DNA from: Flavobacteriaceae bacterium
GTDB lineage: Bacteria > Bacteroidota > Bacteroidia > Flavobacteriales > Flavobacteriaceae
Length of the DNA: 64,000 bases
Reading direction: 5' to 3'
Assembly: GCA_029248405.1 (NCBI GenBank)
Contig: JAQWJJ010000011.1
Coordinates: forward strand, 1-64,000
A model generated the notes under the pieces. That model was given only the letters and a program-made list of their open reading frames with translations. It searched no databases and was not told the DNA's origin. Positions 21,437 through 34,757 of the stretch are shown in pieces. The position numbers were made by a program, and so were the translations under genes. Position 1 is the stretch's first letter, and every line of letters begins with the position of its first letter.

Positions 21437-21487
21437 AATGTTGGTATGTAAAGGTCGTCAAACTGAGTGCAAGCGAAGGAAGTGTAT

Positions 21488-21537
21488 ACTGCCTTTAGCA
21501 TTTTTTTTGGAGGTTGCAATCAGTCAAATCTGTCCTC
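21488..21537 (-). ncRNA. SAM-II-type riboswitch in the metK leader
   Basis: Read on the minus strand, the leader holds a compact H-type pseudoknot. P1 is GAGG (21537-21534) with CCTC (21513-21510). P2 is ACTG (21524-21521), inside the P1 loop, with CAGT (21491-21488). Between them lie the conserved segments GATTTGACTGATTGCAA and AAATGCTAAA, close to the SAM-II core of the Sargasso-sea metX aptamer, where the equivalent P2 bases are ACC and GG. The stem bases differ while pairing is kept, and the loop bases are nearly identical. It starts a few bases after the predicted transcription start and ends about 50 bases before metK. SAM binding should lower metK translation or transcription. SAM-V has a similar core and is the alternative class. 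Confidence 0.82.
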
Positions 21538-21549
21538 ATAATTGAAGGG

Positions 21550-31772: not shown

Positions 31773-32539
31773 GCATGGGACAAAACATAAAGATTGTAGG
31801 CGGGCTATTGGCCCTCATGTTATTTGGCTGTGACAGTCAAAATGCGTGGGATTGTGTTCAATCGGCAGGGCCCATTGTTCAAAAAGAATTTTCTGTAGAA
31901 CAATTCAAGAAAATCATCATTTGGAATAGGGTCCAGCTTATTTTTTCCTCTGGGACACAGCGGCGGGTTGTGGTCGAAACGGGTGAAAATTTGATGAACG
32001 AGATTTTAGTTCGAGTTGAAGACAGTATTTTAAAAGTCAGTGACCGCAATAGTTGTAATTTTACACGGGAATATGGCATCACCAAGGTTTATGTCACAGC
32101 ACCAGTGGATTCTTTAGAGATCCGATCTAGTTCGGGCTTGCCGGTGATCGGCCAAGGGCCAATCACTTTCAAGAAATTGACCCTGGTTTCTGAAGACCGT
32201 GAACAGGATGGTGAATTTCATGTTGATGGCGATTTCATTATAGATGAATTGGATGTCACCCAGTTGATCATTTTCGCAAATGGTACATCAAAGTTCTTTT
32301 TGAAGGGCCGTACCAATAGCGCCAACATTGGTCTTTACGACGGCGATACCCGGGTAGAAGCACCGGAGCTTGAAATCAGGAATCTTTATTTGTTCCACCG
32401 CAGTACCAATAAAATGATTGTTGCGCCGACCAATCGCATTCAGGGCAGTATTGTTGGTATTGGCGATGTTATTTGTCTGACCAGACCGCCTTTGGAGTTT
32501 GTCGAGGAAACTTTTACCGGGCAGCTCATTTTTCAATAG
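31769..32539 (+). CDS. Head-GIN (DUF2807) domain lipoprotein
   Basis: A 256-residue lipoprotein (lipobox LMLFGC) whose mature part is a repetitive beta-helix-like domain: the FKKIIIWNRVQLIFSSG opening, VVVETGENLMNEILVRVED, then repeated short strands with SLEIRSSSG and ANIGLYDGD. This is the putative auto-transporter adhesin head GIN domain widespread in Bacteroidota; function unknown. The ATGA overlap with the PagL-like gene suggests both act on the envelope. Confidence 0.82.
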   Translation: MSMGQNIKIVGGLLALMLFGCDSQNAWDCVQSAGPIVQKEFSVEQFKKIIIWNRVQLIFSSGTQRRVVVETGENLMNEILVRVEDSILKVSDRNSCNFTREYGITKVYVTAPVDSLEIRSSSGLPVIGQGPITFKKLTLVSEDREQDGEFHVDGDFIIDELDVTQLIIFANGTSKFFLKGRTNSANIGLYDGDTRVEAPELEIRNLYLFHRSTNKMIVAPTNRIQGSIVGIGDVICLTRPPLEFVEETFTGQLIFQ

Positions 32540-32674
32540 TTACTCTGTTCTTTTGCCAGATCAAATTTGATGTGCGACTTGGTTTTCAAGGGGCTATCTT
32601 GTGTGCAAATAATTGGAGAAACATTTTATTAATCTTGTGAGAACCCTTACTTTAGCTTTAGAAATTGAACAACA

Positions 32675-32740
32675 ATGCACTATCTCATCCAGAAGTTTTA
32701 CTTTTTTTATTTTACAAAATTTCCCTGGGCTTGTGTTTAG
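32675..32740 (+). CDS. Phe/Tyr-rich leader peptide of the pheA operon
   Basis: A 21-codon frame, ATG to TAG, contains five Phe, three Tyr and one Trp codon; the core reads KFYFFYFTKFPW. This is the composition of attenuation leader peptides such as PheL. It lies 76 bases before prephenate dehydratase and is followed by a terminator hairpin with a competing antiterminator (listed separately). Its role is to sense charged tRNA-Phe and tRNA-Tyr through ribosome stalling, not to make a functional protein. Confidence 0.85.
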   Translation: MHYLIQKFYFFYFTKFPWACV

Positions 32741-32790
32741 TGACCGAAACATATTTTAATTAGCCCGGAAGTGTTTTCCGGGTTTTTTTT
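32725..32790 (+). promoter_or_regulatory. Transcription attenuator of the pheA operon
   Basis: Two exclusive structures are visible. The terminator is CCCGGAA (32764-32770) with TTCCGGG (32776-32782), loop of 5, then eight Ts. The antiterminator is CTGGGCT (32725-32731, inside the last leader codons) with AGCCCGG (32762-32768), 7 pairs with one G-T. A further CCAG (32689-32692) can pair with CTGG and would free the terminator. Ribosome stalling at Phe/Tyr codons leaves CTGGGCT free for the antiterminator; translation to the stop covers it and allows termination. Confidence 0.85.
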
Positions 32791-32815: not shown

Positions 32816-33688
32816 ATGACAATCGCGATCCCTGGTATAGAAAGTTCATTCCACGATTTGGCTGTTCGCGCCCTGTTTCCAGAAAGGCCGGTGAACTTGC
32901 TTTTTAGATCTTCTTTTGATGCGGTGACCCAGGCCATCACAGAGGGTAACGCTGATTTTGGTGTTCTGGCGATAGAGAATTCTATTGCAGGATCGATTCT
33001 GACCAACTACAATCTTATTGAGAGTGGAGCATTTGAAATTTATGATGAAGTATTCCTCAATATTCAGATGTTTCTGATGGCCTTGCCCTCGGCGGAGTTA
33101 TCGGATATAACAGAGGTCCATTCTCATCCTGTAGCACTGCTCCAATGTCGTGATTATCTGCGCTGCTTTGAAAGGCCCTTGAAGGTCATAGAAGGTCGTG
33201 ATACCGCAACAGAGGCCCAGCGCATTGTTATGGAACAACTTAACGGGGTTGCTGCCATTGCCGGTGAAGAAGTGGCCGAGCGCTATGGGCTCAAAATATT
33301 AGACCAACACATCCAAGACATCAAAAACAACCAAACCAGATTTGTTTTGATCGGGCCTTCGGGACTCAGTACGCAAAAAGAACTCAACAAGGCCAGCATC
33401 AAGTTTCAACTCGGACATGAAATTGGGTCATTGAGTAAAGCCTTGTCAGTTCTGAGTGACCATGACATTAATTTGACCAAAATACAATCATTACCTGTTC
33501 TAGGTGCTTCTTGGCGTTATGCTTTTTTTGTTGACGTCACGTTTAAAAATGTCCTTGACTTTGAAAAAGCCATAGAAGCATTAAAGCCACATCTGAAAAA
33601 TTTCAAACAACTGGGCGTATATGCCACTAATCATAAAAATACCCCCAGTAGATTAATACATGACTCAAATGACACATACCAACACTAA
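32816..33688 (+). CDS. pheA: Prephenate dehydratase
   Basis: A 290-residue enzyme making phenylpyruvate from prephenate. The catalytic domain (1-180) has the AIENSIAGSI motif and NNQTRFVLIG with the catalytic Thr-Arg-Phe; the C-terminal ACT domain (about 195-275) starts FQLGHEIGSLSKALSVLSDHDINLTKIQS and binds phenylalanine as inhibitor (the ESR-type site is here KIQS). There is no chorismate mutase domain in this protein; it is on the next gene. The start ATG lies 25 bases after the attenuator T-run, so the gene is under attenuation control. Confidence 0.94.
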   Translation: MTIAIPGIESSFHDLAVRALFPERPVNLLFRSSFDAVTQAITEGNADFGVLAIENSIAGSILTNYNLIESGAFEIYDEVFLNIQMFLMALPSAELSDITEVHSHPVALLQCRDYLRCFERPLKVIEGRDTATEAQRIVMEQLNGVAAIAGEEVAERYGLKILDQHIQDIKNNQTRFVLIGPSGLSTQKELNKASIKFQLGHEIGSLSKALSVLSDHDINLTKIQSLPVLGASWRYAFFVDVTFKNVLDFEKAIEALKPHLKNFKQLGVYATNHKNTPSRLIHDSNDTYQH

Positions 33689-34757
33689 GGCACGGACTTG
33701 GCTCGATAATATGGGACTTCAACATCCTCTAGTCATCGCAGGGCCATGCAGTGCAGAGACAGAAGAGCAGCTCCTGACTATTGCGCACGGACTCAAAAAA
33801 ACCAAAACCACCATTTTGCGGGCAGGATTATGGAAACCAAGGACCAGGCCAGGGAATTTTGAGGGGGTGGGCGCTCTTGGATTACCATGGCTGAAGCGCG
33901 CAAAGGAAGAAACAGGGCTATTGACCACAACTGAGGTGGCGCATCCGCATCACGTCGAATTAGCACTCCAACATGATGTCGATATTTTATGGATCGGCGC
34001 CCGAACGACCGTCTCACCTTTTATTGTGCAAGATCTTGCCGATGCCCTTCAAGGAACGGACAAGATAGTTTTGGTTAAGAACCCCGTCAACCCGGATTTA
34101 GCCCTTTGGATGGGGGCCATTGAGCGATTTGAAAAATCTGGAATCTCTCAATTGGGCGCGATCCACCGTGGTTTTTCTTCGTACGAAAAACACAAATACC
34201 GTAATACACCCGAGTGGCAAATTGCTATTGATTTTCAATCGCGTTGTGCGGATGTGCCATTGATTGTGGACCCCTCTCATATGGGGGGCAGAAGGGACCT
34301 TATTTTTGACTTGTCTCAGACTGCTCTGGATTTGAATTATGATGGATTAATGATTGAATCTCATCACCAGCCGGATTTGGCCTGGAGTGATGCTGCCCAA
34401 CAAGTCACCCCAGGGGCTTTGCATGAAATCATTACCGCTTTGCGCATCAGAAAGCCCCAGGGCGATGCTCAAGAGTTTCAAATTCAGCTAGATGCGTTGC
34501 GTACTCAAATTGATCTTTCAGACCGACAGATCATTGAAACCTTGGGCCGTCGCATGAAAATAGCCAGTCAGATTGGTCAATTAAAGCAAGATAATAATGT
34601 GGCTATACTGCAGTCGGATCGTTGGTATGCCATCTTAGAGCAGATGATTCATGAAGGGACACAATTGGGCCTTAGTGAAGAATTTGTTCAAAAGCTTTTT
34701 AAAGCGATCCACCAAGAATCCATCAATCAACAGAAATCTATAGGGTTGCAAAAGTGA
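33660..34757 (+). CDS. DAHP synthase fused to chorismate mutase
   Basis: A 365-residue bifunctional enzyme. The N-terminal domain (about 12-265) is a type I-beta DAHP synthase: AGPCSAE, LRAGLWKPRTRPGNFEGVG, and IVDPSHMGGRR with metal ligands. The C-terminal domain (about 275-360) is an AroQ chorismate mutase: LDALRTQIDLSDRQIIETLGRRMKIA. It thus catalyses the entry step of aromatic synthesis and the branch to prephenate. The first 29 bases overlap pheA. The architecture is the one known from Bacteroidota and some Gram-positives, where the mutase domain gives prephenate-mediated feedback. Confidence 0.95.
   Translation: MTQMTHTNTKARTWLDNMGLQHPLVIAGPCSAETEEQLLTIAHGLKKTKTTILRAGLWKPRTRPGNFEGVGALGLPWLKRAKEETGLLTTTEVAHPHHVELALQHDVDILWIGARTTVSPFIVQDLADALQGTDKIVLVKNPVNPDLALWMGAIERFEKSGISQLGAIHRGFSSYEKHKYRNTPEWQIAIDFQSRCADVPLIVDPSHMGGRRDLIFDLSQTALDLNYDGLMIESHHQPDLAWSDAAQQVTPGALHEIITALRIRKPQGDAQEFQIQLDALRTQIDLSDRQIIETLGRRMKIASQIGQLKQDNNVAILQSDRWYAILEQMIHEGTQLGLSEEFVQKLFKAIHQESINQQKSIGLQK

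Follow-up and report, generated by a model that had tools for sequence, protein, structure and literature searches.

The region that separates a DUF2807 gene, ending at position 32539, from the prephenate dehydratase gene pheA in the genome of a Flavobacteriaceae bacterium raises the question of whether the entry into aromatic amino acid synthesis is placed there under the control of tRNA charging, through a leader peptide and an attenuator, as an initial annotation of this DNA had proposed. The stretch analysed here, referred to as the window, is 64,000 nucleotides long and comes from a genome of 1.92 Mb in 22 contigs; all the features of the locus described below are on its forward strand. 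pheA (32816..33688) encodes a prephenate dehydratase with an ACT domain (Pfam PF00800, 3.6e-48; PF01842, 2.2e-6) and is followed by a gene for a bifunctional DAHP synthase/type II chorismate mutase (33660..34757; PF00793, 2.2e-37; PF01817, 3.9e-22), which accounts for the sole CM_2 match detected in the genome. Since the two frames overlap, they are presumably carried by the same transcript.

A leader peptide ORF, MHYLIQKFYFFYFTKFPWACV, was read directly with its stop codon at 32675..32740 (ATG 32675, TAG 32740), and its 21 codons, among them five Phe, three Tyr and one Trp, agree to the base with the frame initially annotated. The control codons TTT TAC TTT TTT TAT TTT (Phe-Tyr-Phe-Phe-Tyr-Phe) occupy 32696..32713, and 11 nt separate the end of this aromatic run from the segment called strand 2 below. 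Nearly all of 40 loci compared share this spacing, the run being separated from strand 2 by 7-12 nt, mostly 11. A ribosome whose A site holds the final aromatic codon would cover about 10 nt beyond that codon; with a gap of 11 nt, strand 2 would thus start just outside a ribosome stalled on the run and be covered by a ribosome at the stop codon. No Shine-Dalgarno-like sequence precedes the leader ATG in the window, an absence that is usual in Bacteroidota. When the intergenic region was put through 2000 dinucleotide shuffles, a short ORF with at least nine aromatic codons appeared in 23 of them, and such an ORF together with a terminator in 2. Considering this last figure, and that a scan of both strands found no other F/Y/W-rich leader with a terminator elsewhere in the 64 kb, chance is a poor explanation.

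Between the leader and pheA lies an intrinsic terminator spanning 32762-32790, whose stem pairs CCCGGAA (32764-32770) with TTCCGGG (32776-32782) ahead of eight Ts (32783-32790); as previously described, it ends 25 bases short of pheA, and by itself it reaches a z-score of -4.5 and an energy of -13.5 kcal/mol. Its 5' arm belongs to strand 3, AGCCCGGAA (32762..32770), which is common to the terminator and the antiterminator, and its 3' arm with the eight Ts forms strand 4 (32776..32790). The 7-pair antiterminator in which CTGGGCT (32725-32731) competes for AGCCCGG (32762-32768) was also recovered, one of its pairs being a G-U. Two parts are additional to the initial annotation. In the fold of 32723-32775, an inner 7-pair stem between TGTGTTT (32732-32738) and AAACATA (32747..32753) lengthens the antiterminator, which then counts 14 pairs and -14.9 kcal/mol against the energy of the terminator given above; CTGGGCT and TGTGTTT, the outer and inner arms, together make up strand 2 (32725..32738). 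The other part is internal to the leader, the 5' portion of which (strand 1, 32677..32699) is able to pair with the leader end and strand 2 (about 32716-32736), in a stem that is weak by itself in the window (z about -1).

The sole promoter-like site found is upstream of the leader. A sigma-70 promoter scan of the region returned nothing, as expected for Bacteroidota, and the motif TAnnTTTG, located at -12 to -5 for the sigma-A of Flavobacterium psychrophilum (PMC9723704), was used instead. A -7 box of this type, TACTTTAG, is present at 32648..32655, and its position relative to the consensus would place the transcript start near 32660 and leave about 15 nt untranslated ahead of the leader. 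Boxes of the form TAnnTT[TA]G stand at a near-fixed distance upstream of 35 of the 47 leaders retrieved by an automatic search of related loci, for 3.0 expected by shuffling. A start of transcription downstream of the terminator, which the initial annotation had named, along with a lack of conservation, as grounds for refuting its reading, was tested and is contradicted by the upstream position of the motif and by the 25 bases left before pheA, which offer little room for a second promoter.

The sequence features at hand are those of what is very probably a classical four-strand, ribosome-mediated transcription attenuator sensing charged tRNA-Phe and tRNA-Tyr, and the interpretation as a Phe/Tyr attenuator ahead of pheA and the DAHP synthase gene is supported by conservation, covariation and the upstream promoter motif. 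From the leader, the strands, their spacing and the operon we infer ribosome stalling, read-through and tRNA specificities as follows. Transcription would begin shortly before the leader ATG. When tRNAs for Phe and Tyr are charged, the ribosome would reach the stop codon and cover strand 2, leaving strand 3 to pair with strand 4, and RNA polymerase would halt at the U-run ahead of pheA. Under shortage of Phe or Tyr, the ribosome would stall at codons 8-13, covering strand 1; strand 2, some 11 nt further on, would stay free and pair with strand 3 into the 14-pair antiterminator, allowing read-through into pheA and the DAHP synthase/chorismate mutase gene.

Conservation of the leader and hairpins in relatives was examined at pheA loci of 60 related genomes, supplemented with loci on public contigs. 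The automatic search returned a leader and a terminator for 47 of the 53 pheA loci, mostly within the Flavobacteriaceae and their order and some of them from mutually close relatives, and both leader and hairpins are conserved with covariation. These F/Y-rich leaders are 17-34 codons long and, in the 40 loci compared, F and Y represent 24% and 13% of the residues; Tyr occurs in 40/40 leaders and Trp in 25/40. Apart from the aromatic run, leaders of relatives such as MKTNNYTYYNWFYFFFSEKSETLYV, MNTFFTYFNFWFFYFAGKTRVVL and MTKRFFFNGFYFYFFFERGTGLL have little in common. The element is missing in the relatives G020, G030, G040, G047 and G053 and in each of the four f27 genomes. Two loci display peculiarities of their own: in Dokdonia sp. 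(L044), about 200 bases with repeated GGGAATGAGATTCCCG-like hairpins are located between the attenuator terminator and pheA, and a contig titled Candidatus Rokubacteria (OMJU01000164.1, L043) carries a Flavobacteriaceae pheA, its title being probably wrong.

Pairing between strands was evaluated by exchanging partners among species, an approach that leaves shared ancestry in, so that all the numbers on pairing given in this paragraph are inflated to some degree. For strands 2 and 3, the leader end was scored against strand 3 in each species, with the score maximised equally for own and swapped partners; own partners reached 822 and swapped ones 595.5 +/- 21.3, with a maximum of 683 in 20000 swaps. 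Strands 2, 3 and 4 also vary together at individual columns: at the first GC column, 17 loci have G-C-G and 22 have C-G-C, and another column occurs as C-G-C, A-T-A and G-C-G, these counts being biased towards pairing by a strand 2 register picked for best fit. Without selection for pairing, it is difficult to see how base types could have switched repeatedly in the three strands at the same time. For the inner antiterminator stem, conservation is modest (mean z -1.02 +/- 0.16, 40 loci). A three-strand design devoid of the 1:2 stem had been suggested by a comparison of strand 1 with the GC core of strand 2 only (471 vs 462 +/- 11.5, p 0.24), and was overturned by tests on the whole leader: its self-fold has a z-score of -1.72 +/- 0.20 against codon shuffles (40 loci), and the energy of the strand 1:2 duplex is -515.5 for own partners vs -416.1 +/- 14.9 for swapped ones, equalled in 0 of 5000 swaps. 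The 1:2 stem, which uses the leader end beyond the core, is conserved across 39-40 loci. Judged from these comparisons, the pairings 1:2, 2:3 and 3:4 are all maintained by compensation despite sequence change.

The initial annotation also considered Phe attenuators to be known mainly from enteric bacteria, a view that does not hold, as the type occurs widely in the Bacteroidia and had been described in part in 2021 (PMC9723704). In a sample of this class, an F/Y-rich leader was seen by inspection before 26 of 38 pheA genes and 19 of 40 passed a strict automatic rule, the two named species included, with a pairing score of 422 for own vs 329 +/- 14 for swapped partners. Most of the sampled families possess the element, which also precedes pheA in Bacteroides finegoldii (MKSFTYAYYFFFYFYFSNKVEREFVCIK) and Parabacteroides distasonis (MNRFSFTYYFYYFYFSRVRAGVCM). 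The upstream gene differs in these genera, encoding a TPR protein in Bacteroides and an HTH regulator in Parabacteroides, and the element stays before pheA. The records of these two species (NZ_OY725947.1 and NZ_OY725761.1; L139 and L140) are labelled as plasmids and look like chromosome pieces, carrying recJ, recQ, dnaG or the pheA operon. Among 149 genomes of the class that were sampled, only 40 gave a match to prephenate dehydratase itself, owing either to real loss or to the sensitivity of the search.

In three further families, at least one unit precedes 32 of 35 pheA genes, and about ten of these 35 have two units in series, a count in which the third unit of G194 is spurious and from which the second unit of G114, seen on inspection, is absent. 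Tandem pairs of Phe/Tyr attenuators upstream of pheA (L149, L150, L151, L161, L164, L167, L168, L171, L177, L118 and L114) are found in several genera, which belong to three families or more. The genome G059 (contig C25, L060:64-480) even harbours three leader and terminator units in series before pheA, and its leaders MKHITENKAFSFEAFFFNRKTQA, MNNLVSTFRFFGFFFFRKEGAMS and MNQNTQQNFSFFGFFFFKWKSEAVD contain Phe and zero Tyr codons, in an operon without tyrA.

This last case bears on the amino acids that are sensed. The same mechanism could respond to Phe only, with Tyr codons as neutral fillers, or to all three aromatic amino acids through Trp codons, a possible reading that we hold for rather doubtful. 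It is favoured by the three Tyr-free leaders of G059 and by the Trp codons of 25/40 leaders, located inside the run in many Flavobacteriaceae. Against it, Tyr codons are present in each of the 40 leaders tested, they are kept also where tyrA is lacking, and in the window the Trp codon is part of strand 2. Sensing of Trp is unlikely in the window, the sole TGG of which belongs to strand 2 and probably reflects pairing, in a genus where no TrpA was found above cut-off in eight genomes. The idea of Tyr codons as a read-out of a tyrA gene in the same operon gave mixed results: most relatives have an operon made of pheA, an aminotransferase gene, tyrA and the DAHP synthase gene, the clade of the window has pheA and the DAHP synthase gene only, and this clade and several relatives keep Tyr codons without tyrA; only G059, with neither, fits. 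Prephenate dehydrogenase TyrA (PF02153) was detected in 0/8 genomes of the genus and in all the control genomes, an absence that is provisional, as is that of TrpA, because most of the eight genomes are incomplete. An aromatic amino acid hydroxylase (NF010657, 771.7 bits for a cut-off of 346) is encoded in the genome of the window, and its family is present in six of the eight genomes. The genus therefore probably makes Tyr from Phe and imports Trp; if these absences hold, Phe, and Tyr from Phe, are the aromatic products of the operon, and the dependence of both supplies on it fits the Phe/Tyr codons.

Two other explanations call the attenuator itself into question. The ORF might encode a functional small peptide, active in membranes or signalling, with an incidental terminator, and its conserved position and the possible membrane activity of an aromatic-rich peptide would agree with this; however, only aromatic identity and spacing are kept across loci, the start, the end and the order of F, Y and W varying freely, and the last leader codons serve RNA pairing, which makes this alternative highly improbable. 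Least credible, and largely refuted, is the view that the hairpin merely serves as the 3' terminator of the DUF2807 gene and that the ORF arose incidentally from the T-rich composition of the intergenic region. In its favour, the hairpin has the form of an ordinary intrinsic terminator, and T-rich shuffles yield an equally aromatic ORF in about 1% of trials; against it, the hairpin is retained ahead of pheA in Bacteroides and Parabacteroides, where another gene lies upstream, and the leader, the 11-nt ruler and the antiterminator are conserved with compensation.

The Phe/Tyr attenuator can be compared with several known systems. Like the enteric pheL-pheA attenuator (RF01859), it combines a Phe-rich leader, the 1:2, 2:3 and 3:4 pairings and a terminator before pheA; unlike it, it mixes Phe and Tyr codons, has the DAHP synthase gene in its operon and lacks a Shine-Dalgarno-like sequence before the leader. 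The element of the window matches no Rfam family at threshold, and relaxed thresholds gave only weak, mixed matches. RF01859 Phe_leader (threshold 55 bits) has no match in the window and sub-threshold ones in two relatives (31.8 and 28.4 bits), and RF01692 Bacteroid-trp has none in the window at gathering; the latter (PMC2864571) is a cis-regulatory candidate of the same phylum, tied by its name to trp genes, thus to another operon. The sole Rfam match of the window at threshold is a SAM-II riboswitch (21485-21543, reverse strand, 64.2 bits). A literature search revealed nothing closer than PMC9723704, which describes, for pheA and other genes of F. psychrophilum, structured 5' regions that are conserved in other Flavobacteriaceae and have no Rfam hits, and which presents strong indications that amino-acid operons are attenuated through leader peptides. 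Compared by description only, the pheA element of F. psychrophilum shares with ours the gene, the family and the lack of an Rfam hit, and the two are likely the same; the passage concerned does not name the peptide or the amino acids for pheA, a spread beyond the Flavobacteriaceae or tandem copies. The tandem attenuators of Salmonella mgtCBR (PMC3641672) likewise involve two short leader ORFs in series, whereas the Bacteroidia arrays repeat one Phe/Tyr signal two or three times.

The new elements are thus the three-strand covariation, the class-wide spread and, in some lineages, the tandem arrays of two or three attenuators, and the interest of the attenuator lies mainly in these last two. We consider it reasonably probable that they represent an uncatalogued, class-wide family of Bacteroidia Phe/Tyr attenuators that would control the aromatic entry enzyme, be read by non-Shine-Dalgarno ribosomes and, multiplied into series of two or three, raise the dynamic range of repression. 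Such a family would extend textbook Phe attenuation to a major phylum with a different translation initiation, and would place the first step of the aromatic pathway, beyond the Phe branch alone, under tRNA charging. It would also represent a clear RNA family that Rfam lacks, shared by flavobacteria and the gut genera Bacteroides and Parabacteroides, and its natural tandem arrays may provide a way to ask how serial attenuators add up.
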